Assembly: GCA_021734325.1 (NCBI GenBank)
Contig: JAIPJF010000001.1
Coordinates: 1 to 64,000, forward strand
DNA from: Fidelibacterota bacterium
GTDB taxonomy: Bacteria; Fidelibacterota; UBA8477; JABMPR01
Length of the DNA: 64,000 nt
Reading direction: 5' to 3'
Positions 26,600-45,863 of the stretch are shown piece by piece. Every line of letters starts with the position of its first letter. Positions within the stretch are counted from its first letter, which is position 1. The translations under genes were made by a program, and so were the position numbers. The notes below the pieces were generated by a model. It was given only the letters and a program-made list of their open reading frames with translations. It was not told the origin of the DNA and did no database searches.

Positions 26600-27820
26600 T
26601 TACTTAAGAAAATGCATTTTAATTACTTGCGAGTGAGTTGGCGATTGCAGTTTTGCGAAATAAATTCCAGTCGGAACCGTAATTCCACCATTATCCTGAC
26701 CATTCCAGACATATTCATAATCCCCAATATGTCTGTTTGCAGATTCCACTGTCTTAACCATCCTGCCCGAAATATCGTAGATTACCAACGATAGATCTGA
26801 TGTCTGCTGGGAGCTATAACGAATAGTTGTGCTTGGGTTAAAGGGATTAGGATAATTTTGGACTAAATAAAACCCTTCTGACGCAATTCTCTCTTCCTGA
26901 ATACCGGTCACTATACCGGCCCATCCAAAGTGGACATGAAAATATTCATCAAATACCGCAGTGATTGCTTCAGCATACTTTTTGCGATTTGTATCTGTAT
27001 CACGTAAACCCACCCGATAGGCTTCGATCTGTACGGCGTTGATGTTTCCCCCAAGACTCGAACCGTGCATTTGTGTGGTATACCCGCCACTGAAATAGGG
27101 ATTGCCATCGCCTGGATCGGGCTGGAACAGGCTCGGGACTGCAGAGATTCCCTGTTCCTCAAAGAGGGCACCCAAACTATTGGCGCCCCTGATAAGATCT
27201 GCAAAACTTAAATCTGAATTTTCAGCCAATGCCCTGATACTGCTGTTTGAAGCATAGCTATTCACCACGTTATCTGACTGCATCAGGGTCGTTGCAGACA
27301 AGAGATATCCCAATTCCAATCGCTGCAGTGTATGACCGTGACCATGGATGTCCACAATGAAACCCTTGCCATACTGTGACTCCACAGAATCGCTGGCAAT
27401 ATTTATAAATCCATGATATTCAGTCCATGCCTGTTCGGCCCATTGATTCTCCTGAGCCGCCTCCAGTATCTCCCGATTGGGATCAAGTTTTGTACGCTTC
27501 AAATTGGAGATGATTATATGTGGATAGCCTCCTGTCGCCTCGAAAACTGCATTCCGGACAGCAATGGCTGTTTCTTTTGTGTATGAATCTGTAACCGTTG
27601 TACCCCAGGTTCGATCTGGAATCTCAGCAGGAGTAAGATCGCCTCCATGAGGGGCTGTAACTATGAGTGCTACATCTCCCGGATAATATTCAACATAGCT
27701 ATTGCGGCCATAGTATACCTCGCCAACCTCGTATGTTTGGGCATAAAGAGTGGCGACAAATGCCAGACACAGGGCTACATATATTGCCTTGAAGAATCTC
27801 TTATATTTCATAATTCTCAT
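26600..27820 (-). CDS. N-formylglutamate-amidohydrolase-like protein with type IX sorting domain
   Basis: A 406-aa protein with signal peptide (ending ATLYAQ). The catalytic region resembles the N-formylglutamate amidohydrolase family: ALIVTAPHGGDLTP, LKRTKLDPNRE and VDIHGHGH carry the likely zinc ligands and conserved arginine. The last about 80 residues are a type A sorting domain (YPNPFNPSTTIRYS, VWNGQDNGG, PTGIYFAKL), so the enzyme should be exported through the outer membrane by a Por (T9SS) system. Family members are normally cytoplasmic, which makes the tag notable. It is the last gene of the gamma-glutamate string, 42 bp after pgsW. Confidence 0.82.
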   Translation of the reverse strand: MRIMKYKRFFKAIYVALCLAFVATLYAQTYEVGEVYYGRNSYVEYYPGDVALIVTAPHGGDLTPAEIPDRTWGTTVTDSYTKETAIAVRNAVFEATGGYPHIIISNLKRTKLDPNREILEAAQENQWAEQAWTEYHGFINIASDSVESQYGKGFIVDIHGHGHTLQRLELGYLLSATTLMQSDNVVNSYASNSSIRALAENSDLSFADLIRGANSLGALFEEQGISAVPSLFQPDPGDGNPYFSGGYTTQMHGSSLGGNINAVQIEAYRVGLRDTDTNRKKYAEAITAVFDEYFHVHFGWAGIVTGIQEERIASEGFYLVQNYPNPFNPSTTIRYSSQQTSDLSLVIYDISGRMVKTVESANRHIGDYEYVWNGQDNGGITVPTGIYFAKLQSPTHSQVIKMHFLK

Positions 27821-27862
27821 CCTCGGGAAGGTTAATCCTCTTTATTACCTAATTAACAAAAT

Positions 27863-28912
27863 TTATTCCGTCGCTGTTTTGATCCACCACACACAAAGTG
27901 ATAAAACGATTAGAAAAAGCAACCCAAACTGCTTATTCACCGCTGAATCAAAATACAAGATTTCTGACCTCGATTCCTGGTCACCGTAATTTGTTCGAAT
28001 GTCATATCGCAACGCCAGCTCTCTGATATTCAGTAACTGTATGATCGGTATCCCTTTGGCGTTCATTCCCAGGATCAAACCACGATTCTTGTGTTCACAG
28101 TGAGGAAGCTTAAAGTTTAAACCAGGGGGAATCTCCAGCGCATGGCTACAGGCTCCCATACTTGCCTGGTTTCCTCCAACATTGATCAACAGAGCAATAG
28201 TATTATCACTCAGTATCTGTGTTTTCTGTGCGATTGACTCCTCAAGAGAGAGCGGAATATATACCGCTTCCCCATACTCCTGGAGGCTGGAGTCCATGCT
28301 CGCAATCCCTTCAGGATAGTTTGCAGATCCATTGTCATTCTCACCACCATAGGTCACAAGGAGGGAACGATACCGCAGACCCCCACGTTCTCGCAGCCAA
28401 CGCTCATAGTCTATCCACAATGAACCGGGCTGATTGGCACCAAATGAGGATGCCCCAAGTGAGCTGAAAATAACTGCCTCGATTCCCATAGTTTGCAAGG
28501 CGGCCAGCGTTGATATCCCCAGAGCTGGAAATGAACCACTCAGGGTAACGCCAACCCGTTTGGAAGCATCGATCCCTGCCTCATGAAGCAGTCGAACTAC
28601 CAAGGCGGAAAACTCTGGATTGGTTGACAGCTCTTTGGCCTGTCTTGAACCAAGGGTGGTTGTAACAGCCGAATACTCTATACCGAGAAGATTTTGGTAG
28701 GGAATATTTGAATCGAGATCACCAGGGATGCCTCTGCTCCGTTTTTCCAGATGGATTTGCTCTAACCAGTTTTGTGCTAAACCTCTCGCCTGCTCCATGG
28801 ACGCAACATCATCTCGCAACACCTGTTTCTGTAGCACGGTCTCTGACAATAGAATGAATAATACTGCGAATCCACCACTGATGAGCAGTCGTCTGTTTCT
28901 GGAAATTTGCAT
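27863..28912 (-). CDS. pgsW: Poly-gamma-glutamate system protein (PgsW-like)
   Basis: A 349-aa protein with an N-terminal helix (about 8-25) and a possible C-terminal helix (about 330-345), the bulk being periplasmic. Sequence features such as GVTLSGSFPALGI, IFSSLGASSFGANQPG and LINVGGNQASMG match the family I know as 'poly-gamma-glutamate system protein', found next to pgsB and pgsC. Its biochemical role is unknown. The start overlaps the pgsC stop (TAATG at 28912). A CapA/PgsA gene, the usual third component, is absent from this window. Confidence 0.8.
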   Translation of the reverse strand: MQISRNRRLLISGGFAVLFILLSETVLQKQVLRDDVASMEQARGLAQNWLEQIHLEKRSRGIPGDLDSNIPYQNLLGIEYSAVTTTLGSRQAKELSTNPEFSALVVRLLHEAGIDASKRVGVTLSGSFPALGISTLAALQTMGIEAVIFSSLGASSFGANQPGSLWIDYERWLRERGGLRYRSLLVTYGGENDNGSANYPEGIASMDSSLQEYGEAVYIPLSLEESIAQKTQILSDNTIALLINVGGNQASMGACSHALEIPPGLNFKLPHCEHKNRGLILGMNAKGIPIIQLLNIRELALRYDIRTNYGDQESRSEILYFDSAVNKQFGLLFLIVLSLCVWWIKTATE

Positions 28913-29340
28913 TAGCTCAGGATGAGCCCGATCATATAGACTCCAGACATGACAATTACGATACTTGTAATTGTAGGGATGACTTTTTGCCTCACCATTT
29001 CGGTGGCGATAAGACCGGGTACCAGGTATCCAATTGAGTGGATCGCATGTGGAATATAGGATCCATATCCCAGCAGACGATTGATGAGAATTCCATATAC
29101 AAAGCCCAGGAGCATTGCCAAAAGCAATCTTCGTCGGCCGTACAGGAGCAAATATGGCATCAATATTCTCATGCTGCCCCAGGTCAGGAATGCGACCACC
29201 AGAGTGAGGAGTATTTGACCCGGTTCATGGATGTACAGAGCCAGATATGCCGGGGCAATGACACCTCCTGGAGTGATTCCAACCACTTCGTAGTAAACAA
29301 AACCAAGGATCAAACCAATAAAGAATGTTTCAGCTATCAT
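28912..29340 (-). CDS. pgsC: Poly-gamma-glutamate biosynthesis protein PgsC
   Basis: A 142-aa hydrophobic protein with about four or five helices, the normal size for PgsC/CapC. The N-terminus LILGFVYYEVVGITPGGVIAPAYLALY carries the typical PgsC motif 'E--GI-PGG-V-P-YLA'. It is thought to form the membrane part of the polymer synthase and export complex with PgsB. It lies 9 bp after pgsB and is coupled to pgsW. Confidence 0.9.
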   Translation of the reverse strand: MIAETFFIGLILGFVYYEVVGITPGGVIAPAYLALYIHEPGQILLTLVVAFLTWGSMRILMPYLLLYGRRRLLLAMLLGFVYGILINRLLGYGSYIPHAIHSIGYLVPGLIATEMVRQKVIPTITSIVIVMSGVYMIGLILS

Positions 29341-29349
29341 GAGGATATC

Positions 29350-30468
29350 TTACTCCTGGATCCTGCGCTTTAAATCATTCCACATAATCAGGCCTTCGTG
29401 GCCGGTGTTGCCAAATCCGAACAGGGTCGATTCACCGCTCAATACATTCTCCAGATTTCCAGGTAGCCGCGTCCCCCACTCAAGGATCCGATTCTCAGTG
29501 ATCCCCAATTTTCTTAAGAGTCTGTTTGCCGGCATCGTATGCGTTCCTGTCAAGATGATAATTTTAATGTTTGGCAGGTGTGCAATCCATTCTGCGAATT
29601 GGATCGTCCTCAGGGGCCGATCATTTCTCGTATGCAGGAGAATAATAGAATTTTCATAGGAGCTTTGCCACTGCATAAACAATTTTTCTGCAGAACTCGT
29701 ATCATTGACAGCCAAGCCATTGATCATCTGGAATCCAGATCTCACATTTGAAACAATAGGCTCCGTATTCGTCTTTGCATACCCCACGATGCCTTCGATG
29801 GCAATTTGACGTTCAACTCCGGCCTGCACACACACTTCCAGAGCCAAATCCAGGTTCGCAGCAATTATTCCTCCGGGTGCATCGTCATGAGTGGTTCGCG
29901 AAGCAAGAACAACTTTTGTATCCCGCTGCTCTGCAATCTGCTGAATAAGAGGTAAATATTTTTCTTCGCCTGTCACAACAATCGCTTTTTCAGGGATAGC
30001 TTTACAGATCGCTGCCGCATAAAGATCCAGATTCCCAGCGTAATGTTCGCGATGATCATCTAAAATATTGGTAATCACATATATCTGGGGCAGAATCATA
30101 CGTGAGTTTATCACCTGGTATTCAGGAGTTACAGCCATACATTCGGCAACCAATACATCCACATGTTCTTTCGCTGCCCAGTAGACCACTTTCATCTGCT
30201 CCTGAATCCTGGGTGAGCCCCTTCGTCGAATCGGTTTTTTTTCACCGCCCGGCAAATGGACCAGAGGTTCTGTACCTGTCGTTTTCCCAAATACCTGCTT
30301 TCCACCAGCTCGTAAACCGGCATAGATAAATTCAGTTACACTGGATTTGCCTCGTGTCCCATTGACTGAAATGCGCAATGGGATCTGACGAATCCAGTAT
30401 GCATGGAGAATCTTTTCCAGAAGGAGTACAGTCAGGATAATGACTGGTAACAATAGCACAAAATTCAT
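29350..30468 (-). CDS. pgsB: Poly-gamma-glutamate synthase PgsB (Mur-ligase-like)
   Basis: A 372-aa ATP-dependent amide ligase. After an N-terminal hydrophobic anchor (about 3-18) comes the P-loop VNGTRGKSSVTEFI (about 35-48). Later motifs include VAECMAVTPEYQ and NILDDHREHYAG, as in PgsB/CapB. It should join glutamates through gamma-carboxyl groups on the cytoplasmic face. The length fits the family (about 390). The genes around it for racemisation and gamma-glutamyl hydrolysis strengthen the call. Confidence 0.93.
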   Translation of the reverse strand: MNFVLLLPVIILTVLLLEKILHAYWIRQIPLRISVNGTRGKSSVTEFIYAGLRAGGKQVFGKTTGTEPLVHLPGGEKKPIRRRGSPRIQEQMKVVYWAAKEHVDVLVAECMAVTPEYQVINSRMILPQIYVITNILDDHREHYAGNLDLYAAAICKAIPEKAIVVTGEEKYLPLIQQIAEQRDTKVVLASRTTHDDAPGGIIAANLDLALEVCVQAGVERQIAIEGIVGYAKTNTEPIVSNVRSGFQMINGLAVNDTSSAEKLFMQWQSSYENSIILLHTRNDRPLRTIQFAEWIAHLPNIKIIILTGTHTMPANRLLRKLGITENRILEWGTRLPGNLENVLSGESTLFGFGNTGHEGLIMWNDLKRRIQE

Positions 30469-30509
30469 CGCCAGTCCGGAGGAACGATCAGGTAGAATTT
30501 AAATGCGAT

Positions 30510-31544
30510 TTATTTTGCATGGACAATGGCTTCCCACTCAAAAAACTGGGGATCAAAATCCCAATTCTCCAATGCGTCTGCAGTTATTCCTGATACTTCT
30601 CTTATGAGTGGGGCTATTGACTGAATACGAGTATCATCCAGGACGGGTTGGGAAAGTACATATACACTCACATCCGTTTCTGGAAACCTGTGGAGGCATT
30701 TGCTGGGGAATAGCCCATCAGCCATATATGGATTGGGGTCAAGCACGGTGGCAACCGAAGTGCCTTGAGCCTCAATTTTATCCCTGAATTTGTCTCTTAT
30801 ATATGGGTAATGGGTACAGTTCAGACTCACGATCACATCCTGTTCACCTTTTGGTAAATTGGCAAGGGCAGCCTGAGTATATTGCTCGACGAGGCTATCC
30901 GTTTCTACGCTATTGGTTCCCCTTTCAATCGCTCCCGCCAGATGGGGACAGGCTTGTGTAATAATTCGATCCGCTTTGAGACCACGCTGCACCAAACCCT
31001 CCTTATGGGTATTCTGTTGAACCGTGGTTTCCGTAGCAAAGAGCAGGATTGATGCAGATTCGTTGATCTTACTTCCCTGCTCCATAAGATCTATTCCAGC
31101 CTCCACGACCCCGACTACAGGAACTTGTGAGTGCTTGCTAAATTCTGTATAATCATACAAGACCGAAAGGGTATTGCAGGCAATCAGTAAAACATCCGGA
31201 TTGAAGTTCTCTGCCATTGCCTCGAGGGCGTTATTAAAGACGGCGACCTTTTGTTCAGTAGACTTCATGGAATTGTAGCCCTGTTCCTTACTGGGCTGGG
31301 CATTGAAGAAGATGACTTCAACATGGCTGAACACCCCCAATGATTCCATCCGGTTTGCAATGTTTGCCGCTACGGAAAGTCCACCCAGGCCAGAATCTGT
31401 AACCAGAATCGTCACCGAATCGTTTTGGAATAGTGGCGAAAGTGGATCCTCTGATTCTATGGTCACCTGCTGAGGTGCACAAGCATTCAGCATGAGGAAA
31501 AGTATAAAAATGATGAGATAGGCAATATTATTTTTGGTTCTCAT
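30510..31544 (-). CDS. Lipoprotein glutamate racemase-like enzyme
   Basis: A 344-aa protein whose N-terminus is a lipoprotein signal (hydrophobic core then LMLNAC, Cys at 22). After a linker follows an Asp/Glu racemase fold with the MurI active-site set: DSGLGGLSV (catalytic Asp/Ser region), IACNTLSV (first catalytic Cys) and SLNCTHYPYI (second catalytic Cys). All key residues are kept, so activity on glutamate is likely. MurI is normally a cytoplasmic enzyme for peptidoglycan precursors; an exported lipid-anchored form is unusual. Between pgsB and a gamma-glutamyltransferase it could convert D-glutamate freed from a polymer into L-glutamate for uptake, or the reverse. Confidence 0.85.
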   Translation of the reverse strand: MRTKNNIAYLIIFILFLMLNACAPQQVTIESEDPLSPLFQNDSVTILVTDSGLGGLSVAANIANRMESLGVFSHVEVIFFNAQPSKEQGYNSMKSTEQKVAVFNNALEAMAENFNPDVLLIACNTLSVLYDYTEFSKHSQVPVVGVVEAGIDLMEQGSKINESASILLFATETTVQQNTHKEGLVQRGLKADRIITQACPHLAGAIERGTNSVETDSLVEQYTQAALANLPKGEQDVIVSLNCTHYPYIRDKFRDKIEAQGTSVATVLDPNPYMADGLFPSKCLHRFPETDVSVYVLSQPVLDDTRIQSIAPLIREVSGITADALENWDFDPQFFEWEAIVHAK

Positions 31545-31556
31545 GATAAGCCTTCC

Positions 31557-33257
31557 TTAGTATCCAACCACGTCGCCGTCGCGACGTGAATCGGCTCCAC
31601 CTTTAATAAGAGAATCGTTTGGATCAATGAGAATTCCTTGTGCACCACCAAAATACAAATCATAAGGTGCCTTGATCGTTAAACTATGCCCCCAGGCACG
31701 AAGACTATCCATGCTCGCTTCCAGGAATCTGTTTTCCAGATAAAGCTCATCTCCAATTGCATGTATCCGGGGTGCCTCAATGGCATCATCAATTTCCATA
31801 TTGAAATCGACGATATTGACAATGATCTGTACCAGGGCTGAAATGATCCGGGTGGCGCCTGGCGTCCCAACTGTCAGGAATGGCTTGCCATCCTTGGAAA
31901 CGATCGTTGGAGCAATGCTACTGGCCGGGCGCTTCAAGCTTTGTAAGCTATTTGGTGAATCTGGTGATCTGGAAAAGTCCTTCAGATGATCGTTTAACAA
32001 CACGCCATATGTTGGATCAGAAATACCGGACCCAAACCAGTGATTCACACTCTGTGTAAGGGCGAGCATATTACCCTGTGCATCAACAACGGAAAAATGG
32101 GTCGTGCTGCCCGATTCAGGTTCCAGGGGGAGATCATAATGATAATCAAAGGATGCTTGTCCGGGAATAATTAGTTTACCCAATGCTTCTGCATGTGTCT
32201 TACTGATCAAATCTGAGACAGGAACCTCAGTAAAATCAGGGTCTCCCATGCTTGCACTCTTGTCAATAAAAACCATTTTCATGGCTTCAGCGAGAATATG
32301 CAAATATTTCGGGTCATCATGGGTATAGCTCTGGATCTCATACTGTTCCAATATATTCAGTAGTTGGATGATCTGGGTTCCACCGGCAGGAGCAGCTGCT
32401 GAAAATATATCGTATCCCCGATAGGTTCCAGAGACTGGGACCTTGTCCAGTGCTTTATATTTTTTAAGGTCCTTTTTGGATAAAACACCACCACGATCCT
32501 TGACGGTCTTAACCACAGAAGCAGCGATGTTCCCCCGATAAAAGCCTCTGGCTCCCTTTGAAGCAATCTCTTCGTAACATTCAGCCATTTCCTTGTTGTA
32601 AACCTGCTCACCAGGCATGGCCGGTAAGCCGTCTATGACATAATGAGCAGCCAGTTCAGGGTTCTCTGCCATCTTGTCGAAATTTGACATGATCATATCT
32701 GAAAATTTCTCACTGACTTCAAATCCATCACGGGCATATTTGATGGCTGGTGCCAGGATATCCTTCAAATCCAGTGAACCATCTTCAGCATGTAATTTTA
32801 GAAGTCCGGCAACCGTTCCCGGGACACCAATGGCCATCACACTGGAATTTTCTGTGAGCAGTTGCTCTCCATCTGGATCAAACAATTGCTGCTGGTTAAA
32901 ATTACGGGGGGTAGTCTCCCGAAAATCGATCATTCTCACTTTGCCGGTCTCAGCGTTTGCATATAACATGAATCCGCCTCCCCCGACACCACTGGCATTG
33001 GGTTCTACCACTCCCAGGGCAAAGGCAATGCCCACTGCTGCGTCGGCTGCATTTCCACCTTTTTGCAGAATTTCGATCCCAGCCTTGGTTGCCAGGGGAT
33101 TTGCAGTGGCTACCATACCATGTTCGGCGGAAATTGTCTGACCAAATACACTCGCCAGTCCAAACAGGTGGATCCAAATAAGCTGGCTCACCCGCATCCT
33201 GAAGGAGTGGTGTTTCTTTGGACTTAAGGCTCCAATCCCTAACTGTAAGATATTCAT
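31557..33257 (-). CDS. ggt: Gamma-glutamyltransferase 1
   Basis: A 566-aa Ntn-hydrolase precursor. Family motifs: GMVATANPLA, GGNAADAAVG, GVGGGGFMLYA, and the autocleavage site STTHFSVVDAQGN, where the second Thr becomes the N-terminal nucleophile of the small subunit. VGTPGATRI follows later. The annotated start gives a long n-region; an in-frame ATG at 33197 yields a more typical signal peptide (MRVSQLIWIHLFGLASVFGQ). It hydrolyses or transfers gamma-glutamyl groups outside the cytoplasm. It is one of two copies in the string, and only moderately similar to the other. Confidence 0.93.
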   Translation of the reverse strand: MNILQLGIGALSPKKHHSFRMRVSQLIWIHLFGLASVFGQTISAEHGMVATANPLATKAGIEILQKGGNAADAAVGIAFALGVVEPNASGVGGGGFMLYANAETGKVRMIDFRETTPRNFNQQQLFDPDGEQLLTENSSVMAIGVPGTVAGLLKLHAEDGSLDLKDILAPAIKYARDGFEVSEKFSDMIMSNFDKMAENPELAAHYVIDGLPAMPGEQVYNKEMAECYEEIASKGARGFYRGNIAASVVKTVKDRGGVLSKKDLKKYKALDKVPVSGTYRGYDIFSAAAPAGGTQIIQLLNILEQYEIQSYTHDDPKYLHILAEAMKMVFIDKSASMGDPDFTEVPVSDLISKTHAEALGKLIIPGQASFDYHYDLPLEPESGSTTHFSVVDAQGNMLALTQSVNHWFGSGISDPTYGVLLNDHLKDFSRSPDSPNSLQSLKRPASSIAPTIVSKDGKPFLTVGTPGATRIISALVQIIVNIVDFNMEIDDAIEAPRIHAIGDELYLENRFLEASMDSLRAWGHSLTIKAPYDLYFGGAQGILIDPNDSLIKGGADSRRDGDVVGY

Positions 33258-33288
33258 ACGATAAAACCCGATTTAAAGTCGATGTTAC

Positions 33289-34176
33289 TTAGGATACGCC
33301 CGACTCCCGAAGAATGATACTCACCATCTTTAGTTGATAGGCGATACGTTTTTCCAGAGGAAGTTTTTTACAGGTTTCTGTCGTGAATCCCGGGATACCA
33401 AAACATTCCCCTGCTGACCATGCAGCGCTGTGCTGAACGGGTCCAGCGGCGAGGGAGAAGCGCTCCAGGCCTTCTGGAATGGTCTCATTCATTTCGTCAA
33501 GTAATACCAGAGCAACCCAGGAGGCAGCATCATTGGGAGTATAAATAAGGGTTTGCCCAAGACCGTGATACTGACTGTTGGCCTCCACATACTCCAGGTG
33601 AAAAACAGGACTTTCATGCAGGTCAATGACAACATCGATCTTATGCTGCTTGATCAAAGTGGTTATTTCATAGGCCTCTTTTTCCATGGCGAGTCCATGA
33701 CTATTTCCAGGATAGCAGCGATTTAGATTTCCCATCTCAACATCCACACCCTTTGGAACCTTTATCCTGCGCGTTCCCTGGCGATCGGCAATCTTGTTTG
33801 CCTCTGGAATGATAAAAACCTCTCCTGTTTGCAAAGGGGAATCTGTGAATTTTTTCACTAGGCGGTGAGCACTTTCAAAACCTGCCGGTTCATTGCCGTG
33901 GGTACCACCAATGATCAATATGGAGGGTCCTGCTTCCTTCCCGACGAAGTGAAATATTGGTGTTTCATATTCAGTTGAGTCCATCAGATTTTTATAGAAA
34001 TACGGTCTGGTCTGGAAATAGGATGCGTGAATTTCGCTTGCCTCAGGTGTCAGGTAATTCTTCTGAGTTCCTGCACACGACAGAAGCAACAAAACCAATG
34101 TATTTATGCTGATTATTCTGAATATTAAAATATTTTCACTCCAATCCATTCTTACGCTCCCTGCTTCCCGAATCAT
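33289..34176 (-). CDS. Lipoprotein succinylglutamate desuccinylase/aspartoacylase-like hydrolase 1
   Basis: A 295-aa M14-related zinc hydrolase. The N-terminus carries a lipobox-like LLLLSC (Cys about 34). Zinc ligands are expected in GGTHGNEPAG (His and Glu) and VIDLHESP (His), with the substrate motif LNRCYPG between. Relatives remove acyl groups from N-acyl-aspartate or glutamate or trim gamma-linked residues. It overlaps ggt2 upstream by 4 bp (ATGA). Substrate unknown; context suggests an N-blocked or gamma-linked glutamate compound. Confidence 0.82.
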   Translation of the reverse strand: MIREAGSVRMDWSENILIFRIISINTLVLLLLSCAGTQKNYLTPEASEIHASYFQTRPYFYKNLMDSTEYETPIFHFVGKEAGPSILIIGGTHGNEPAGFESAHRLVKKFTDSPLQTGEVFIIPEANKIADRQGTRRIKVPKGVDVEMGNLNRCYPGNSHGLAMEKEAYEITTLIKQHKIDVVIDLHESPVFHLEYVEANSQYHGLGQTLIYTPNDAASWVALVLLDEMNETIPEGLERFSLAAGPVQHSAAWSAGECFGIPGFTTETCKKLPLEKRIAYQLKMVSIILRESGVS

Positions 34177-36452: not shown

Positions 36453-36471
36453 TGTTATAACTCCTTATTAA

Positions 36472-37590: not shown

Positions 37591-37736
37591 TTTACGAGGA
37601 AGACTCTCAATAGTAAGGGAATGATAACGATCAAATGGGTCAGTTGTTGTTTCCAGTCACACTCATTGAATAGGTCCTTGATCGAGAGAATCAAAACCAT
37701 TGCTGCTATACCGATATATATGAATTCTAACATCAT
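37587..37736 (-). CDS. 49-aa two-helix membrane protein
   Basis: A short ORF fills exactly the gap between the TRAP-like permease and the second desuccinylase-like gene. Its ATG overlaps the permease stop (TAATG at 37736) and its TGA overlaps the next ATG (ATGA at 37587-37590), so it is coupled at both ends. The product begins MMLEFIYIGIAAMVLI and ends PLLLRVFLVK: two hydrophobic helices (about 4-19 and 34-48) joined by a polar loop with one Cys. It may replace the small DctQ subunit of a TRAP transporter or accompany the Pgs complex. No family recognised. Confidence 0.72.
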   Translation of the reverse strand: MMLEFIYIGIAAMVLILSIKDLFNECDWKQQLTHLIVIIPLLLRVFLVK

Positions 37737-39013
37737 TACACGATCAAATACTTTGCGAACCAGTTAGCACCAATGATCATCATTACACCATAGAATGCCG
37801 TTATCACGATATAGGGAATACAGACTTTTAATATTCGAAAATAATTCGGTTCATCGACCACCTGTGCTGAGAAAATTCCAGCCAGTGCAGTCGGTGGCAT
37901 CATGTCACCAAGACTGGCGATCAGGGTTATGGCTGAGGCAACGATGATCTCATTCCTGCCCAGCAAGGCCAGGAGGAATGGCACTCCAAGAACATAGGAA
38001 GCGCCATATGAGGAGATGGCCCCAAATAGGGGTAGTGATACTGCAATGGCCACATATATCCAGTAAGATGGTATCTGAACAATATTGACAATCAGAAATC
38101 CACGAACACCGCTCAAACTGAGTATCTGGATGAACATACCAATCCCAACTAATATCCCCATCACCGGCATTGCCTTCTTGATCGCCGATTGAGCAACTTT
38201 CCAGTAATTGAAATCACGTCCGGAACGAAAGGCCGCCAAACTGGAAATCACAAATATCAGAGGGAGCCCAAGGGAAGTCAGGTCATTCGGAATGAGACGG
38301 GACAGACTCATCAGAAGGACCAGAACCAGGACAGGTAAAAAGAGTCGTGCTCTATGAATATCCTGGGTTAGTGCAGAAATTTTTTCCAGCACTTCAGAAC
38401 GTACTCCCCTGCTCACATGGGGTCTGGCGATAAAATAAGTCGTAAACAAGGCCAGAGGAACCGTAGCAAATAGCAGTGGGAGTTCAAACCCGATAAACGG
38501 CATGTCGACTCCTCCACCGATGATCATGGCAGGAACGTTGATGGGAGGCGCTATCATTCCATATAAAGCAGCCATGGCGATAATACTTCCAGTCTTGACC
38601 TTTGGAATGCCATAGGCTATAAGCGCCGGCGCGACGACTGCTCCTGTGGTCAGAACTGATGCAGTTGATAGACCAGTCAGCATCCCAGGGATCATAATAA
38701 AGAAGGTGATCGCCGTTAAAAAAAGGAAAGGGTATGCATGGAAGTAACGGACAATGAGACGACTGGTTTCTCCAAGGGCACCAGTTTCCTTTATGATCTC
38801 CATGAATATCATTGCTGTCACAATGATCAGGATAGGATCAAGATAGGAAATACTGCCCTCAACCAGATGGCGAAACGGAACACCAAAACCTGAAAGCAGG
38901 GCACCCGCTATTGATGCCAGAGCGAGCGAAATGCCGATGGGATATTTCCCTATGAACACCGCAATGGCAAATAGTGCCATCATGGCGATCAGAACGAGGA
39001 GTTCAGCGTTCAT
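37736..39013 (-). CDS. dctM: TRAP-type (DctM-like) large permease
   Basis: A 425-aa membrane protein with about 11-12 helices. The stretches TGLSTASVLTTGAVVAPALI and GMIAPPINVPAMIIG are typical of DctM-like and ion-transporter-superfamily permeases, and ASLGDMMPPTALAG repeats the motif in the second half. No DctP binding protein or normal DctQ subunit is encoded nearby; only the coupled 49-aa protein follows. It could import glutamate, a gamma-glutamyl peptide or another organic acid produced by the exported hydrolases. It starts 13 bp after porV. Confidence 0.8.
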   Translation of the reverse strand: MNAELLVLIAMMALFAIAVFIGKYPIGISLALASIAGALLSGFGVPFRHLVEGSISYLDPILIIVTAMIFMEIIKETGALGETSRLIVRYFHAYPFLFLTAITFFIMIPGMLTGLSTASVLTTGAVVAPALIAYGIPKVKTGSIIAMAALYGMIAPPINVPAMIIGGGVDMPFIGFELPLLFATVPLALFTTYFIARPHVSRGVRSEVLEKISALTQDIHRARLFLPVLVLVLLMSLSRLIPNDLTSLGLPLIFVISSLAAFRSGRDFNYWKVAQSAIKKAMPVMGILVGIGMFIQILSLSGVRGFLIVNIVQIPSYWIYVAIAVSLPLFGAISSYGASYVLGVPFLLALLGRNEIIVASAITLIASLGDMMPPTALAGIFSAQVVDEPNYFRILKVCIPYIVITAFYGVMMIIGANWFAKYLIV

Positions 39014-39026
39014 CTAAGATTCCTGT

Positions 39027-40064
39027 TTAAAAACCGGAACTGATCGAAAAGGTCTGGATATTTCCGAAATCACCATAGGGTGTAAACGCGTAATCCAACA
39101 TTAAGGTTTGACCATACAGATTGAGCTTCAATCCACCTCCATAGGCATATTGTTGCAGGTCATAACCCCTGCTGTAACCCCCACGTGCAAACAACATATC
39201 ACGATAGGCATACTCACAGCCGATATTCAATTTCTCGCTGTCGTCGTTGGGATGGGTTCCATTCACAGCAAGGATCAATCGACTTTGGTCTGATTGAAAC
39301 AGACGGTCACCCTGACCCATGAGCTCCATGGATGTGCTTATTTTGAAGCTTGTTGGGAGTGGCCATGGTTCCGTATGCAATCGGACGTCCACGCTTGCGT
39401 TGAGTGAATTCGCCTCATTCGGATCGAACTCACGAATCAGATCGCGCCCTGCAAGCTGCATGTTATTTCCGAAGTTGGTAAATGCCATGCCAATAATAAT
39501 GCCCTTGTATTTGGTATCCAGATAGGTACCCACATCGACACCAACAGCCGTTGCAGACTCATTCCAGATCCGCTCGGAAATGTATTTAACCGTTCCTCCG
39601 AGAGAAAATCGGTCGGTCATGCGCCTGGCATACGTGATGCCGGCAGCGATGCCCTGGGCGTTCCAGAATTGACCCGTTCCTTTCGGGTCCATCTCGGTGG
39701 TGATTTCTTCATCATTCACCGTCATGGAATTCACACTCAAGCCCAAATAGGAGCTGCTGTTCATCGGGATAACCAGAGCACTGAAGTCATGACCGGTATC
39801 CACCAGCCAGGCCTCATGGGAAAATGTCCAGGTAGTTCGATCCAGATTGGTAATCCCTGCCGGATTCCAATACACGGTTGAAGCATCATTTGCTACGGAT
39901 TCGAAGGCTCCCCCCATGGCCAGAGCGCGTGCCCCAACACCCACTTTCAGGAATTGTGCAATGGAGGTGCCTACCTTGCGAAACTCTTCTGCCTGCGCGA
40001 GTTGCAGAGAACCAAGCACAAATGCCAGAGTCAGTAATCGAATGATTATGTTTCTTTTCTTCAT
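39027..40064 (-). CDS. porV: PorV/PorQ-family outer membrane protein
   Basis: A 345-aa barrel protein with a signal peptide (ending LAQAEE). The early motif GVGARALAMGGAFESVANDASTVYWNPAG (about 43-71) is the FadL-like PorV/PorQ signature, and it ends with an aromatic residue (SISSGF). PorV-like proteins escort or anchor type IX secretion cargo at the surface. It follows the 989-aa sorted protein by 10 bp and may serve that cargo specifically. Confidence 0.87.
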   Translation of the reverse strand: MKKRNIIIRLLTLAFVLGSLQLAQAEEFRKVGTSIAQFLKVGVGARALAMGGAFESVANDASTVYWNPAGITNLDRTTWTFSHEAWLVDTGHDFSALVIPMNSSSYLGLSVNSMTVNDEEITTEMDPKGTGQFWNAQGIAAGITYARRMTDRFSLGGTVKYISERIWNESATAVGVDVGTYLDTKYKGIIIGMAFTNFGNNMQLAGRDLIREFDPNEANSLNASVDVRLHTEPWPLPTSFKISTSMELMGQGDRLFQSDQSRLILAVNGTHPNDDSEKLNIGCEYAYRDMLFARGGYSRGYDLQQYAYGGGLKLNLYGQTLMLDYAFTPYGDFGNIQTFSISSGF

Positions 40065-40074
40065 GATGCTTCTC

Positions 40075-43044
40075 CTACCTCACAATGGCCAGTTTGCCGG
40101 TTGTCTGGTCTCCACCCGGTGTACTTATCAAATAATAATAGACACCATAGGATATTTCCTGACCGAAGGTGTTGGTCAGATTCCAGTTTTCGATACCTGT
40201 TCCATTGTCATGATGAAGTTCTTTAACCTTGGTCCCACTCAGAGAATATATCTTAATATCACATTCCTCCGGGAGATACATGAATTTCAAGCTGCTGACG
40301 TTCTCCATGGGATCGAATAGAGAGGTGACCACATAGGGATTGGGAACCACCTTCACACTGGACAGAGCCCCAGCTTCCATGGTTTTATCAATGGTGGGAT
40401 CATCAATCGTAAATGTCAATACATCTCCTGCATAGTAGCTTGAAGTGGTGTCAAAGCCAGATCCGTCCGAGTATGCACTCGTATAGGTGATGATGGTCTT
40501 TTGACCCGCTATGGGCAAGCTTCCTGTTGCACCGGCAATGGAATAAACAACTTTCATCGGCCACTTGCCGGGGAAAAAACCAACAGGATCAAATCCCTTG
40601 AGGGAATCACCTGCAGCAGGTGTGGAACTGGGATATAACACATCACACACATAGATTTCATCTCCGACACTGAAGGCTCCGTCAGCATCCTTATCCTTAT
40701 AGGCGCCCACGATCTGGACTTCAGCCGGTTTTACCCTCCAGACTTCAAAAGGGACCCAGAACATGGCCATTGGCTGTGTTCTGTCCTGAGAATACACCCA
40801 CGACCCTGTATCGGTAAAACGAATCTCATACCCCTGGACCCTGGAGGCAATCGAAGAGGTTGCAACGTTTGTTACTGAAACTGACCAGGATTCGGTTGTA
40901 TCTGTTGCACCAACGACTGAAAGATCCTTCCCCGATCCATCCTCAATGGTCCCAACAGTCCCAATTTCCTGAGTAGAATTGACCTTGATCTGCAGTCCGA
41001 TATCCTCCAGGATGTAATAGGTATCTGAATTTATCTCCATTCCAGATTTAAGGATCTCCTCGCTGGAAACATCCTGAACGGAATAACTGGTCGCCGGAAA
41101 TCCATCAAAGGTGATTTCAAAGGTCGGATCCACTGAGTATCCCTGATCATCCTTGTAAATGATGTACTGCTCGGAATCGATGATATCGAAGGATACAGTA
41201 CCTTCTCCAGCACCCGAAGTATGGTCCGTTTCACTCACTTCCCCCGGTATGTAACCGATGGGTCGAGGCGCCGGAATGACATCGACAAAATTCTTTTCCG
41301 CCGCACTCGTACCCTTGGCGCTTTCATAGGAAGGAATGGAAGCACCCGGTACTCCCTGGTCATATGAGGTGACTGTGTAGGAATAGGTAATTCCATTTAG
41401 AACTGTATTGTCAGTATAGCTATATTTAAGACCGGTATTGTCACCGAGATAATTGGTCGGAGTAATTGGATCGACACCATTTACACTATTATCCAGATCG
41501 AATTGTATCAGAGGTACGTATCCGATCACATTTCCCTGATAATCAGTAATCTCATCACCCCAGGTAACGCCTCCATCTTCACTGCGATAGATCTTGTACC
41601 CTTCGAAATCCAAATCACCTGTTGAGGGATCGGCTGCAAATTCAGGACTATTGTCCCAATAGATAGTGACAGATTCATCACCGGGAACTGCTTTTAATTC
41701 TGGTCCAGGAGGAGCAGAAGGTCCCACAAAGCCAGCCTCGTACATTGTGATGGCCATTTCGCTGTTTTTCATGAAATCTTCATCTGTGTCACCGACAACA
41801 ACGGCAATGGTCCACTTCAGTGTATCGCCGGGAGCCAGTGAAAAAGGTCCTGAGGCAATGATATACACCCAATCTCCCCCAGCGGTGATGGTATTCAGGT
41901 CATCCAGGTGTGGATTGGATCCATGAAAAAATTCACTCTTGATCAATGCCAGGTCCGGATCATTCATATCACTACTGATAATCGGCCATAACTGCTCATC
42001 GGCCGTCGGTCCAGTATCCGTATAATAATGGAAGTCTGTGATCCCCATGTCATTCGGTGTTTCCAGATAGATGATACCATAGTCCATATCCTCCAGACGA
42101 CCATTGGCATTTGCGAGGCTCGCACCACCGATATCTGCATCGATATCACGGTTGAAAATGATTGGATACTGGTTTGAAAACCCGTATCCACTTGGACTGA
42201 TGAGCGTTTCCTGTCCATAATCACTACAATCAGGATCCTGATACATACCGATCCAGGCGCTATCAATCGTTGTGTTACTGGTGTTGTGGATAAAGAATTC
42301 ATAGAATTGAAAATCTTCAGCATAGGATCTACCATAACAATAGGCCATCTGCTCGATCTCTATGCCCAGCGGATTACCCTGGACATTGGCAGCATCGGTA
42401 TACACTGCATACACGTCCCTGTCTGAGACAAACTCATTTTCGTAGACATAGCCTGTAGCACGATCTCGTCGAAAATATCCCGGCCAAAAATGTTCTCCAC
42501 TGGCATCGACGGGCCAGGTAACTGGAATATCGCTATGAGCCAAATAGGGTGTGGTACCGTCAACGTACTTCAGCATTGCTTCCTTACCACTGCCATCATA
42601 ATGCGTTTTGCCAAGGCTACCATCTTTTGCAACCCAATCCTCATTCCCGTTTGCGCTGAAGCCATCAATGACATTCCCGTTGTCCCCATTTTTTGAATTC
42701 TGACGCACGGCGAATAAAAGTGCAAAATCATCTACCATGGAACCATAGGGTTCAGTCTTCGGATAACGAAAGTTATAGAAATCCTTGGAAGGATTGTTGC
42801 CTGGATCTTCAAGACGGGTATCTGTGATCTGGCCATAGTTCATGGTGAGATTACAGAGTTGACCTTTGCTCATCACACCAATGGCTTCATCAATTCTTGC
42901 CGCTGGCTTATTTAGCTTCAATTTGGTATACCAGGGTTTTTTAGGCTGCAGGGAAACATCATCAATTTCCTGTGCAAGCCCTGGCAAGCTGACAATGATG
43001 ATCAACAGGATGATATTCATGAAGTTCGATCTCATATTTTTCAC
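40075..43044 (-). CDS. Large surface protein with type IX-like sorting domain
   Basis: A 989-aa exported protein with a signal peptide (ending LPGLAQ). The N-terminal 450 residues lack a family I recognise. A fibronectin-III-like segment follows (about 455-580, GDESVTIYWDNSPEF and YSYTVTSYDQG). The C-terminus (about 900-989) is a T9SS type A-like domain: VKVVPNPYVV, IKIYSLSGTKVKEL, GVYYYLIST. It lies 23 bp after a TonB receptor and just before porV, so the three form a surface module. It might bind the polymer or substrate taken in by the receptor; there is no direct evidence. Confidence 0.78.
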   Translation of the reverse strand: MKNMRSNFMNIILLIIIVSLPGLAQEIDDVSLQPKKPWYTKLKLNKPAARIDEAIGVMSKGQLCNLTMNYGQITDTRLEDPGNNPSKDFYNFRYPKTEPYGSMVDDFALLFAVRQNSKNGDNGNVIDGFSANGNEDWVAKDGSLGKTHYDGSGKEAMLKYVDGTTPYLAHSDIPVTWPVDASGEHFWPGYFRRDRATGYVYENEFVSDRDVYAVYTDAANVQGNPLGIEIEQMAYCYGRSYAEDFQFYEFFIHNTSNTTIDSAWIGMYQDPDCSDYGQETLISPSGYGFSNQYPIIFNRDIDADIGGASLANANGRLEDMDYGIIYLETPNDMGITDFHYYTDTGPTADEQLWPIISSDMNDPDLALIKSEFFHGSNPHLDDLNTITAGGDWVYIIASGPFSLAPGDTLKWTIAVVVGDTDEDFMKNSEMAITMYEAGFVGPSAPPGPELKAVPGDESVTIYWDNSPEFAADPSTGDLDFEGYKIYRSEDGGVTWGDEITDYQGNVIGYVPLIQFDLDNSVNGVDPITPTNYLGDNTGLKYSYTDNTVLNGITYSYTVTSYDQGVPGASIPSYESAKGTSAAEKNFVDVIPAPRPIGYIPGEVSETDHTSGAGEGTVSFDIIDSEQYIIYKDDQGYSVDPTFEITFDGFPATSYSVQDVSSEEILKSGMEINSDTYYILEDIGLQIKVNSTQEIGTVGTIEDGSGKDLSVVGATDTTESWSVSVTNVATSSIASRVQGYEIRFTDTGSWVYSQDRTQPMAMFWVPFEVWRVKPAEVQIVGAYKDKDADGAFSVGDEIYVCDVLYPSSTPAAGDSLKGFDPVGFFPGKWPMKVVYSIAGATGSLPIAGQKTIITYTSAYSDGSGFDTTSSYYAGDVLTFTIDDPTIDKTMEAGALSSVKVVPNPYVVTSLFDPMENVSSLKFMYLPEECDIKIYSLSGTKVKELHHDNGTGIENWNLTNTFGQEISYGVYYYLISTPGGDQTTGKLAIVR

Positions 43045-43067
43045 TATTTTACCTCACACATTGTCAA

Positions 43068-45863
43068 TTAAAATTTGATGTACATACCAAGACGAATGTC
43101 ACGACGGGGACCAACATTGGCCGGATTCGCCTGACGATCGTAGCTGCGATAATTTGCTGGTCCAGCCCACCATGGATCGCCGGTTTCGGACCACACGTAC
43201 CTCACGTTGAGATTGTCCAGGATATTTGTGCCCTTGAGAAAGACTACAAATTTGGTATCTCCAAGATTAAAGGTCCTATCCAGGCGCAGATCAAGCGTAT
43301 TGGTATTCCCCTTTCTTTCGGAGTTGGTCTCAATGCTCAATGCGCCACTGTAGCTTGGTGTGTACGGTAGACCGCTGGCTAGCTGAAAGAGCAGGTTGGC
43401 ACCAAAATTCGAGAGCATTTTTACCCGATAGTTGCTCGGGAAGCGCAGATCGATGTTAGCTGAAAAATCATGGGTTCGGTCAAAGTCCAGATAGAACTCC
43501 CGGATGGGCCTTAAATTGGCATCCCCTTCACGGAAATAGTACCCTGCAAGAGGATCAGAACCTGAACCCTGGGCCACACTGTAGGTATAATGGGCGCTAC
43601 TATTGATCAGACGGCCGATTCGATGCTTAAGACTCACATCAAAACCTTTGACCCTTGCATAATCCTCGTTGATGTAGATTGTGTAATTATAGGGTTGCCT
43701 GGAGTAGTATTTAGTAGAAGTGAGATCACGGATATCCTTGTAGAATCCAGAGAAATCAAGCGCGAGGTTCTCATTGATCTGGTATTTACCTCCCACCTCA
43801 AAGGCGACTGTTTTCTGTGGTTTTAAGCCGGGGTTTCCGATGATCACATCTGATTCTGCCAGGTTGGCAACAGCATTATCATTTCGATATAGATAATAGA
43901 AATCAGGATTCTGGAAAAAATGACCGTAGGAAAAATGGAACACCAGCTTGTCTGTTACGACATGGGCCAACCCGATTCTGGGACTAAATTTATAGCGTAA
44001 TGGAACTTCTTTCAGCTCTTTAAACTGGAATTCTGATGTCGTGGTTCCGTCCCCATTATCAACAGTCACGGTTTCCTGAATATCACCAACATCCTCAAAA
44101 TATTCATCATTTACCTTGAGTGCATCGAATCGAATTCCCAGATTCAACACCATGAAATCAAACTCCATTTTGTCCTGAATGTAAAATGCTGCTTCCTGGG
44201 GCGTTCGTTCATAGAATTCGGGACGATGTCTGAATGCACCTGGCCACGGATCAGCAATGGCATGACGGAAAAGGGTATGCTGCTTCAGATCGAAACCCGT
44301 CTTCAATTGGTGAGCCAGTGTCAACTGACTGGTCAGATCTCCTTTTAAATTAAGCGTGGTCGTTTCTTCACGATACCAGTTGCGGGCATCCCCTCCCCGA
44401 AAATCACTTTCCGTTCCAAAGATGTATTGTAATTTTGTGTATTCAGTGGTCACCGTATCAAGGAGGACACCTGTGTCAGGGTCATAGGGAACATTGATGC
44501 CTGGAATATTTTGCTCCCCAGTCCGAAATAAGCGCTGGAAATGCAGGGTGTAAAAAGTCTTGCTGCTCACAGCTTGTTTCCATGTCACGACCTGTCGTTG
44601 AGTCTTCGTCGTTGTCAGATCCTGATGCCCCAATAATCTTGTGTTATAATTGATGACATCCGATGTGTCATTCGTGACAGGTGGTATGTATTTGTAGTAA
44701 TGGGAATACCCCATGAAATAATTCGATGTAGTCTGGGCAATAAAGGATAGACTTGATGAATTTGTCAACTTATAACTTAATTTCCCCATGAGTTGATTCT
44801 CGATGGTGAAACCAGATGGTAAATAACTATCATGATTATTGTGAAAGCCTGATACGAAGAAGGTCATTTTCTTTGTCATGGGCAGCGGACCGGAAAGATT
44901 TCCGCTGAATCGACCAAGAGCAGGGATGAGCAACTTACCCTCTGCATAGTCATGATCCAGGACACTCACATGCTGATACTGGGATTGGCCAACCGTATCT
45001 TCGACAGAACTGTAGTAGCGAACAGCATCCAGATAATCCTGCTTTTCTGTCTCAGTCAAGCCATCCACCATATTCGATTCCAACAGCCAGTCAGATATAT
45101 GGTAGGGTGAGCTGTTCACGATGTCAGATTCATACTGGAATTTCCCTTCCAGCTTATTGCCACCATCTTTTGTGGTTATATTTACGATACCACTCATGGC
45201 CTCGCCATACTCAGCGTTGAATCCACCCGTCAGGATGGACATTTCACTCACGGAATTGATATCAATTCCAGCACCCAAGCCACCACCAATAGGATCCTTG
45301 ACCAGTATGCCATCGACATAGTACGATACCTCGCCGCTACGTCCACCGCGTAGATGGAGGCTTCCATCCTCGCCTTCAACAAAACCTGCCTGGGTGGTGA
45401 GGGCATCGTTAACTGTGGTCATCGGTGCTTTTTCCGCCATGTCTGCACCGGACATGATGGATTGTTTTGCTGTGATGTCCTTGTTGACCAGCCTTCTCTC
45501 CGCAACAACAGTCACGATCTCCCCTTCAATGGTACTGAACTGGAGGGTAATGACGATGTCAGTAGTCAAGTCTGTTTTTACCAGAACTTCCAAAATGTCC
45601 TCTCCCCGATACCCGATCATTGTAGCCCTGAGTGTGTAGGCTCCCGGGGGGATATTATTAATGAAGAAATGTCCATCTTCACCACTGGATGCTCCCCATT
45701 CTGTACCCAGAATTACGACGTTTGCGCCAAAAAGAGGTTCATCTGTGCTGCCATCTACAATTCGTCCTACGATTTTCCCGGTATTGCCTCCGAATACAAG
45801 CGTCTGCATTGCACAGAGGAGAATAATCAAATGCCTGAGATACGAATGTATGTTACCGTTCAT
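43068..45863 (-). CDS. TonB-dependent receptor with carboxypeptidase-regulatory-like N-domain
   Basis: A 931-aa outer membrane receptor. After the signal peptide comes a carboxypeptidase-D regulatory-like fold (about 28-112, KIVGRIVDGSTDEPLFGANV). The plug (about 130-240) has LHLRGGRSGEVSYYVDGI, and the 22-strand barrel ends RDIRLGMYIKF. It is the first gene of the minus-strand string that leads into the gamma-glutamate genes, so its substrate may be a glutamate polymer or oligomer. The 144-bp gap upstream holds a terminator-like hairpin for the preceding gene. Confidence 0.9.
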   Translation of the reverse strand: MNGNIHSYLRHLIILLCAMQTLVFGGNTGKIVGRIVDGSTDEPLFGANVVILGTEWGASSGEDGHFFINNIPPGAYTLRATMIGYRGEDILEVLVKTDLTTDIVITLQFSTIEGEIVTVVAERRLVNKDITAKQSIMSGADMAEKAPMTTVNDALTTQAGFVEGEDGSLHLRGGRSGEVSYYVDGILVKDPIGGGLGAGIDINSVSEMSILTGGFNAEYGEAMSGIVNITTKDGGNKLEGKFQYESDIVNSSPYHISDWLLESNMVDGLTETEKQDYLDAVRYYSSVEDTVGQSQYQHVSVLDHDYAEGKLLIPALGRFSGNLSGPLPMTKKMTFFVSGFHNNHDSYLPSGFTIENQLMGKLSYKLTNSSSLSFIAQTTSNYFMGYSHYYKYIPPVTNDTSDVINYNTRLLGHQDLTTTKTQRQVVTWKQAVSSKTFYTLHFQRLFRTGEQNIPGINVPYDPDTGVLLDTVTTEYTKLQYIFGTESDFRGGDARNWYREETTTLNLKGDLTSQLTLAHQLKTGFDLKQHTLFRHAIADPWPGAFRHRPEFYERTPQEAAFYIQDKMEFDFMVLNLGIRFDALKVNDEYFEDVGDIQETVTVDNGDGTTTSEFQFKELKEVPLRYKFSPRIGLAHVVTDKLVFHFSYGHFFQNPDFYYLYRNDNAVANLAESDVIIGNPGLKPQKTVAFEVGGKYQINENLALDFSGFYKDIRDLTSTKYYSRQPYNYTIYINEDYARVKGFDVSLKHRIGRLINSSAHYTYSVAQGSGSDPLAGYYFREGDANLRPIREFYLDFDRTHDFSANIDLRFPSNYRVKMLSNFGANLLFQLASGLPYTPSYSGALSIETNSERKGNTNTLDLRLDRTFNLGDTKFVVFLKGTNILDNLNVRYVWSETGDPWWAGPANYRSYDRQANPANVGPRRDIRLGMYIKF

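Follow-up and report, generated by a model that had tools for sequence, protein, structure and literature searches.

The gene string

The window analysed here comprises 64,000 nucleotides (positions 1 to 64,000 of contig JAIPJF010000001.1, assembly GCA_021734325.1) from a Fidelibacterota (Marinimicrobia) bacterium, and it contains a string of genes that brings together proteins of poly-gamma-glutamate (PGA) synthesis, exported hydrolases and a permease. The string lies on the minus strand at 26600-45863 and consists of 15 consecutive genes, 14 open reading frames (ORFs) of 142-989 aa and one ORF of 49 aa. Some neighbouring genes share as many as 4 bp, and gaps, where there are any, do not exceed 42 bp (42 bp between the FGase-like gene and PgsW, 41 bp between PgsB and the racemase). 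A first-pass annotation had described this string and named its gene families, and both were confirmed when the families were called with Pfam and NCBIfam profiles against their cut-offs, with motifs and hydropathy assigned by script. The genes carry the catalytic motifs of their families. In the order of transcription they are:

43068..45863, minus strand: TonB-dependent receptor with a CarboxypepD-reg domain (PF00593 5e-28, PF13715, PF07715)
40075..43044, minus strand: large secreted surface protein with a weak C-terminus of the type IX secretion system (T9SS)/PorZ-like kind (NF052228 1.4e-05 and TIGR04183 19.5 bits, both below cut-off)
39027..40064, minus strand: PorV/PorQ-family outer-membrane protein (NF033709 175.8 bits, cut-off 90)
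37736..39013, minus strand: DctM-like permease (PF06808 40 bits, cut-off 23.8; 12 hydrophobic segments)
37587..37736, minus strand: small protein of 49 aa overlapping both neighbours (two transmembrane (TM)-like segments; no relevant Pfam match)
36472..37590, minus strand: AspA2, AstE/AspA-type zinc hydrolase (PF24827 46.9 bits, cut-off 25; GGTHANE, NLNR, DLHE)
35889..36452, minus strand: DUF6305, exported alpha/beta protein (PF19823 164.9 bits; model pLDDT 91.5)
34173..35855, minus strand: GGT2, exported gamma-glutamyltransferase (TIGR00066 420.5, cut-off 357.85; GSTTH)
33289..34176, minus strand: AspA1, lipoprotein AstE/AspA-type zinc hydrolase (PF24827 67.4 bits, cut-off 25; PF17033 31.7 bits)
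31557..33257, minus strand: GGT1, gamma-glutamyltransferase (TIGR00066 490.8, cut-off 357.85; GSTTH)
30510..31544, minus strand: Asp/Glu racemase, a glutamate-racemase-like enzyme with a lipoprotein signal (PF01177 41.4, cut-off 31; lipobox LNAC; C123, C243)
29350..30468, minus strand: PgsB, ATP-dependent poly-gamma-glutamate synthase subunit (TIGR04012 250.5, cut-off 222.7; P-loop GTRGKS)
28912..29340, minus strand: PgsC membrane subunit (TIGR04011 99.3, cut-off 96.45; PF14102 102.3)
27863..28912, minus strand: PgsW-like 'poly-gamma-glutamate system protein' (TIGR04332 257.5, cut-off 100)
26600..27820, minus strand: T9SS-sorted FGase-like amidohydrolase (PF05013 29.2, cut-off 28.9, borderline; PF18962; TIGR04183)

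Synthesis proteins, cutting enzymes and permease

The P-loop of PgsB was present in the window and in all eight further copies checked. Among five further linked PgsB proteins (loci are numbered L, genomes G), those of L089, L094 and L096 passed the TIGR04012 equivalog cut-off, as did that of L014, a locus of a second kind described below; the PgsC cut-off was also passed by L089, L094 and L040. PgsW has one TM-like segment at each end (residues 9-27 and 323-341), and its model (pLDDT 81.1) shows helices at both ends with an alternating alpha/beta middle; the fold search gave no PDB match at E<=0.001. Elsewhere, in L058-L061, a PgsW relative without PgsB/C adjoins an MBL-fold hydrolase gene (by eye; the L058 gene was profile-tested), and in L058 and L059 it is also near an oligopeptide-transporter-like gene (by eye).

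It had been proposed that the cutting enzymes work outside the membrane, and most of them indeed carry an N-terminal hydrophobic segment or a lipobox: LLSC in AspA1, a hydrophobic anchor segment in AspA2 and a lipobox-like FAAC in GGT2 (by eye), while the signal peptide of GGT1 was recognised by eye only, with no N-terminal segment over the script threshold. AspA1 has the motifs GGTHGNE, NLNR and DLHE, so that both AspA proteins retain the zinc and arginine motifs. The FGase-like enzyme has relatives in L038, L040 and L042 (444-656 bits). No match to the phage-type gamma-PGA hydrolase family PF05908 was found among the cluster genes (E<=0.001).

Both GGTs lack the lid loop, an element of 12 residues. 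Against PDB entry 2e0w, which we take to be the GGT of E. coli, GGT1 and GGT2 show gaps of 10 and 11 residues in this region, and against 4y23, presumably the GGT of B. licheniformis, gaps of 0 and 1 residue. Of 20 GGT rows, 8 could be parsed, and in these the linker at this site is 12-14 residues long; the other 12 were unparsed. The best PDB matches were 4y23 for GGT1 and 2e0w for GGT2, and a capD chain, 3g9k, was matched at 1e-46. As far as the accessible text of PMC8062742 goes, absence of the lid loop is associated with hydrolysis of large polymeric PGA, and transpeptidation is tied to its presence.

The cluster racemase fails the MurI equivalog (TIGR00067, 92.8 vs cut-off 146.65), and the genome of the window encodes a separate MurI (TIGR00067, 260 bits) together with a third paralogue. 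Both cysteines (CNT and CTH motifs) are kept in 4/4 cluster racemases (window, L029, L042, L064), each of which has an export-type N-terminal signal (L042 and L064 by eye). A paralogue of the cluster racemase at L106:7291-8908 (G000:C9) stands right after an M14-type amidase-like gene (by eye), possibly for cell-wall peptide recycling.

The permease was expected to be TRAP-like, and this holds for one subunit. The large subunit of the window is over the PF06808 cut-off, as in TRAP transporters (DctPQM); its relative in L089 reaches 21.9, under the cut-off of 23.8. The differences from TRAP are that no DctP or TAXI periplasmic binding domain was found in any cluster gene (E<=0.001), and that the 49-aa ORF and two relatives gave no match to DctQ at E up to 10, a search in which HMMER filters drop most weak matches; a two-TM protein of 49 aa and DUF6305 are there instead. 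Having a DctM domain only, the permease fails these tests for a true TRAP transporter, and membership was rejected.

In DUF6305, the stretches GGS[ST]KGLGAA and H.GG..RRG.LSD.FN are conserved across 19 sequences, which suggests a ligand site. The model matched 11 PDB chains at E<=0.001, namely nine SGNH/GDSL-type esterases, the gamma-glutamyl hydrolase SpuA and a designed scaffold; glutamine-amidotransferase-like chains followed lower down, and TMq was at most 0.46 in the best 50 rows. We did not retain DUF6305 as a classical solute-binding protein in view of these weak, mixed, low-TM matches. Since it pairs with AspA2 even where DctM is missing, a binding role is not claimed. A DctM-AspA2 pair at L086:10787-13507 (G262) has no DUF6305 in the stretch fetched and is beside sugar-kinase-/isomerase-like genes (by eye), so this pair may handle other substrates too.

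Linkage around DUF6305

The linkage was surveyed in two sets of loci, both picked on DUF6305 alone, and a gene was counted as linked when within 10 kb of DUF6305. The first set of 20 loci came from a scan of contigs from 84,980 species; the query was an alignment of four DUF6305 sequences, and two peptide patterns were used, which divergent copies and other phyla may escape. The records of this set are labelled Marinimicrobia, KSB1, Calditrichaceae/Calditrichaeota, Melioribacteraceae or Hatepunaea, or simply 'bacterium'. The second set holds all 17 new matches, in 13 new genomes, from the phyla of L044 (Calditrichota) and L040 (KSB1), and was annotated with profiles built before its loci were fetched. 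DUF6305 occurs in 4/149 genomes of the phylum of the window, 6/40 of that of L044 and 14/82 of that of L040, and AspA2 (E<=1e-20) in 5/245 genomes of the phylum of the window, its genus being represented by G000 and G011 only.

AspA2 was linked in 19/20 and 15/17 loci; the one exception in the first set, L045, is cut short 50 bp upstream. DctM was found in 11/20 and 13/17, relatives of the small ORF in 13/20 and 10/17, and GGT in 10/20 and 8/17 with fragments counted (truncated L041, partly masked L048, weak or partial L096 and L105). PgsB and PgsC were both linked in 5/20 and 8/17 loci, and PgsW in 6/20 and 7/17; short contigs explain some misses, such as L043, L049, L052, L056, L091, L092, L093 and L103. 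If a PgsB neighbour is assumed at 1% per locus, these counts have P of ~1e-6 (5/20) and ~2e-12 (8/17), and at 3% P is ~1e-8 (8/17), with kinship of the loci uncorrected.

The first-pass annotation had named genes that are not repeatedly linked as the outcome that would refute it. The survey found the opposite: linkage is repeated in Fidelibacterota, KSB1 and Calditrichota and, over two contigs, in one Melioribacteraceae genome. The part of the proposed set that recurs is AspA2, DctM, GGT and PgsB/C, whereas the racemase, AspA1 and the FGase-like enzyme are accessory.

Locus arrangements and trees

Several gene orders were found. The window type, with all genes on one strand, is shared by L038 with the window. 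In L039 this type is reduced: the TonB receptor, large T9SS-type protein, racemase, GGT1 and FGase-like enzyme are missing and PorV is broken off, while a 2,4-diaminopentanoate-dehydrogenase-like gene is present in addition, as is a T9SS-tailed protein. In two Calditrichota loci, L089 and L090, a compact string runs DctM-small ORF-AspA2-DUF6305-GGT-PgsB-PgsC-PgsW, followed by the BNR-like protein, the TonB receptor and the large T9SS-type protein (the GGT of L090 is in two pieces); L094 has the same compact core, with TonB receptor, large T9SS-type protein and PorV in front. In L040, L044, L046 and L064, PgsW-C-B come from the opposite strand and converge on AspA1, and the remaining cluster genes of L040 are themselves split between strands; L064 appears by gene content to continue L047. 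A GGT-PgsW-DctM string stands with no PgsB/C alongside in L066, L068 and L071, and L053, whose contig begins inside PgsW, is consistent with it. A divergent DUF6305 branch has the order DUF6305-DctM-(small ORF)-AspA2; PgsBC(W) are close by in L096, L098, L099, L100 and L103 and not in L095, L097, L101, L102 and L104. The same partners in differing gene orders argue for a shared function over mere inheritance of one segment.

In midpoint-rooted trees that included linked and unlinked copies alike, the PgsB proteins of the window, L038, L039, L089, L090 and L094 formed one set (support 96/92), and so did their PgsW proteins (100/99). These six-locus sets span three phyla, Fidelibacterota, Calditrichota and KSB1. 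The linked copies taken together do not form a single group (3 changes for PgsB, 4 for PgsW), so the linkage has arisen or disappeared on more than one occasion. Another set, which we call type II, was separate in both trees (100/99 and 100/100); in earlier trees without L089-L103, the PgsB set of the window was nearest to type II, with long branches flagged. PgsW (TIGR04332) is present in 18/40 relatives, of which all but G000 and G011 (16) have it in a type II locus. The type II loci (L013-L028, L030, L067, L069, L070, L072-L077) have PgsC-PgsW, plus PgsB where the contig reaches, and share the order PgsB-PgsC-PgsW with the window. They differ in what follows, in six loci read gene by gene an exported protein of ~300 aa and a barrel-like protein of the outer membrane (by eye), and in the 16 relatives no match to the GGT, AspA, DUF6305 or permease of the window was found in the stretch fetched. 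Two kinds of PgsBCW locus thus exist, and type II has the look of a conserved export system of the PGA type in its own right.

A proposed polymer cycle

Because the gene string recurs across several phyla, uncultured bacteria probably have a system for recycling a glutamate polymer that is as yet undescribed. Judging from sequence, we see about an even chance that the cluster makes, trims and re-imports a gamma-glutamyl polymer, most simply gamma-polyglutamate; we infer the polymer, the substrates and the direction of flow. PgsB and PgsC would link glutamate into a gamma-chain and carry it across the inner membrane, with PgsW, by its family, as a probable membrane-anchored partner on the outer side. 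Outside the inner membrane, the lid-loop-less GGTs, whose motifs are seen, would remove glutamyl residues and the membrane-bound or lipid-anchored AspA-type zinc hydrolases would trim the polymer, and, in the window type, the T9SS-exported FGase-like enzyme may act on it at the surface. The exported racemase could interconvert D- and L-glutamate and set which enantiomer is imported. The DctM-like permease and its 49-aa partner, perhaps with DUF6305, would take the product back into the cytoplasm; that the small protein and DUF6305 form part of the importer is conjecture. Where present, the TonB receptor, T9SS surface protein and PorV-type protein may bring back shed or foreign fragments, and a neighbouring histidine kinase/sigma54 activator, going by its conserved adjacency, probably switches the system on.

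Several observations weigh against this reading. No PgsA/CapA (PGA_cap) domain was found among the cluster genes scanned (E<=0.001), the third position of the Pgs set being held by PgsW (TIGR04332) in the stead of PgsA, and the PgsB proteins of L040 (217.3) and L044 (193.6) are under the equivalog cut-off of 222.7. The Pgs genes had been taken as the synthesis side, but the GGT-PgsW-DctM strings without adjoining PgsB/PgsC, in three genomes, indicate that PgsW may serve degradation or uptake and not synthesis; this suggests that PgsW works on the outer, polymer-handling side. The reversed Pgs genes of L040, L044, L046 and L064 mean that one transcript is not general. Pgs genes are really missing in the covered stretch of L042, L048, L050, L051, L055, L057, L095, L097, L101, L102 and L104, among which L042, L048, L095, L097, L101, L102 and L104 have DctM and AspA2 with no Pgs within 10 kb. 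AspA2-DUF6305 occurs without DctM, GGT and Pgs in five loci, L049 (one side only), L050, L051, L055 and L057, so that this pair has a role needing none of them. GGT is missing from L098, L099 and L100. PgsW is present somewhere in 18/20 genomes of the first DUF6305 set, which proves little alone because PgsW is common in the relatives anyway. Of the accessory genes, the racemase was linked in 2/20, AspA1 in 7/20 and the FGase-like enzyme in 3/20 loci of the first set (L064 adds one racemase and one AspA1) and each in 0/17 of the second. AspA1 has a further match to Peptidase_M99, a family of carboxypeptidases acting on cell-wall peptides. A TonB receptor of the kind counted as part of the system in the first-pass annotation was linked to DUF6305 in only 3/20 and 3/17 loci. 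Of the surface cycle that had been proposed, the linkage, the export signals and the lid-loop-less GGTs support the outline, and the accessory genes, the TRAP assignment and the TonB receptor fell short.

Scavenging of foreign gamma-glutamyl compounds, chiefly peptidoglycan stem peptides (gamma-D-Glu-diaminopimelate) or the PGA of others, with Pgs separate and serving for example glutamate storage, seems to us unlikely. It would accommodate the Peptidase_M99 match of AspA1, the racemase paralogue adjoining an M14-type amidase-like gene elsewhere in the genome (by eye), the TonB and T9SS genes, the T9SS-tailed AAT/C45-like hydrolase of L045 and the opposite strand of Pgs in four loci. However, PgsBCW is inside the same compact string as the permease and hydrolases in L089, L090 and L094, whose PgsB and PgsW group with those of the window, and no amidase, LD-carboxypeptidase or muropeptide permease family was found among the cluster genes (E<=0.001).

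We also hold it rather improbable that the cluster builds a coat, in which PgsBC make PGA, GGT is a CapD-like anchoring transpeptidase, AspA sets chain length and the permease salvages glutamate. In the accessible parts of PMC8062742 and PMC4497714, the GGT-family CapD of the B. anthracis cap operon anchors PGA; the window GGTs match the capD chain, and lid-loop-less GGTs can accept polymers. On the other hand, their best PDB matches are ordinary GGTs, AspA2 (34/37) and the permease (24/37) are commoner near DUF6305 than GGT (18/37), which L098-L100 lack, and it is hard to see what an exported racemase and a TonB receptor would do in a coat. A gamma-glutamyl carrier cycle, with self-made PGA as donor, transfer to amines or amino acids by periplasmic GGT, import of the product by the permease and recycling of glutamate, is very improbable: permease, GGT and Pgs share one string, GGTs are transpeptidases by family and PgsW stands beside GGT and DctM without PgsB/C, but the AspA hydrolases, with export signals too, would cleave the product before it could be imported, some linked loci have no GGT, and the lid loop to which transpeptidation is tied in the accessible text of PMC8062742 is missing.

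The make-trim-reimport reading can be extended to an undescribed envelope cycle of the FCB group, which we offer as speculation that is unlikely to hold in full. Its parts would be the synthase, the hydrolases/transpeptidases of the periplasm and a small importer of a new, tripartite kind, made up of the DctM-like permease, a mini-subunit with two TM segments and DUF6305, with PgsW linking polymer to importer and the exported racemase setting D/L; the polymer would be a periplasmic glutamate store or a gamma-glutamyl donor for uptake.

Known systems

To our knowledge, PGA production by Francisella is unproven. The accessible part of PMC5362203 lists capA of the Francisella capBCA locus as a 'hypothetical poly-gamma-glutamate system protein', so that the locus resembles ours, compared by name only, in having B, C and a third protein that is annotated under the same name as the PgsW family; it differs in that no linked GGT, permease or AspA genes appear in the locus as described there.

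In Bacillus, self-made PGA is cut by GGT and later degraded as a glutamate source, according to the accessible text of PMC8062742; the reuse of self-made PGA is thus already known. The likeness to Bacillus pgsBCA(E) with PgdS and extracellular GGT, as far as that source describes it, lies in the PgsB/PgsC families, an exported lid-loop-less GGT and a polymer that is made and then degraded. The cluster differs in having PgsW and no recognisable PgsA, AspA/FGase-type hydrolases and a Gram-negative-type envelope, and its string adds a permease, DUF6305 and sometimes a racemase, TonB and T9SS genes. We know of no transporter, AspA-type hydrolase, racemase or DUF6305 in the capBCADE operon of B. 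anthracis, and the window cluster differs from it also in having two GGTs. The two are alike in that a GGT-family protein, CapD, is beside PgsB/PgsC homologues (accessible parts of PMC4497714 and PMC8062742).

A system with the full gene set had been thought undescribed. Making and reusing PGA is known from Bacillus; among the titles listed from the open-licence literature, none dealt with such a locus, and no account of the gene set, the transporter or the taxonomic range was found there. The same literature gave nothing on pgsW with poly-gamma-glutamate, DUF6305, Marinimicrobia polyglutamate or exported glutamate racemase, only papers unrelated by title on polyglutamate with type IX secretion, and the name 'poly-gamma-glutamate system protein' for Francisella only (PMC5362203).

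The repeated linkage ties DUF6305, PgsW/TIGR04332 and the 49-aa DctM partner to gamma-glutamyl metabolism in several little-cultured phyla. It predicts that some Marinimicrobia, KSB1 and Calditrichota may make and recycle a glutamate polymer, some with a racemase outside the cytoplasm. The compact operon of the L089 type is small enough for direct expression and testing.

Surface genes, borders and neighbouring genes

TonB receptor relatives are directly before the T9SS surface protein in L038, L046, L047 and L094 and downstream in L089 and L090. The large T9SS-type surface protein was linked to DUF6305 in 5/20 and 3/17 loci, and PorV/PorQ relatives were so in 7/20 and 1/17. T9SS-tailed proteins also occur inside cluster variants (L039:8377-9969, L045:2618-4228, L047:11750-13240, L047:14943-16487); that of L045 matches AAT/C45 Ntn hydrolases, and those of L039 and L047:11750, alike by eye, gave no AAT/C45 match. 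A family of T9SS-sorted proteins, alike by eye, adjoins DUF6305 or Pgs at L044:4157-5386, L046:10503-11741, L047:10534-11751, L048:10443-11699 and L094:357-1673, and the two members tested (L044, L047) had no catalytic Pfam match.

The conserved block exceeds the 15 genes. A BNR protein is encoded 144 bp upstream, and beyond it is a divergent kinase/sigma54-type regulator pair (47880-50705):

46008..47663, minus strand: T9SS-sorted BNR-like protein, likely a 16th gene (PF18962 42.3 bits; PF13088 below cut-off); the true start is perhaps 47549
47880..49346, plus strand: sensor histidine kinase, divergent from the cluster (PF00512, PF02518)
49356..50705, plus strand: sigma54-dependent NtrC-type response regulator (PF00158, PF00072, PF02954)

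In the same-genus genome G011 the whole order is kept, from regulator/kinase and BNR through TonB to PgsW and FGase. In L078, of the same genus, the BNR-like protein has a relative at the corresponding place (732 bits), and the regulator pair is likewise in position. Relatives of the kinase sensor domain adjoin the cluster in L078, L039, L089 and L090 (4/38 further loci), and the regulator has relatives in the same four (500-770 bits).

Within the string, promoter-like sites (sigma70-like pattern) numbered 33 vs 35.0 in shuffles and terminator-like sites 11 vs 16.0, neither above chance, so it is possible that the whole string is one transcript. A sigma54 promoter 5' of the BNR gene was dropped as a candidate: the pattern had 33 matches in the window vs 34.7 expected, and a looser pattern gave no site at the matching place in L078. 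Directly downstream of the string, on the same strand, a large CitMHS/TrkA-C transporter gene is found at 24084-26438, a position taken by another gene in L029. The G+C content of the window is low at 52001-56000, 0.35-0.39 vs ~0.45.

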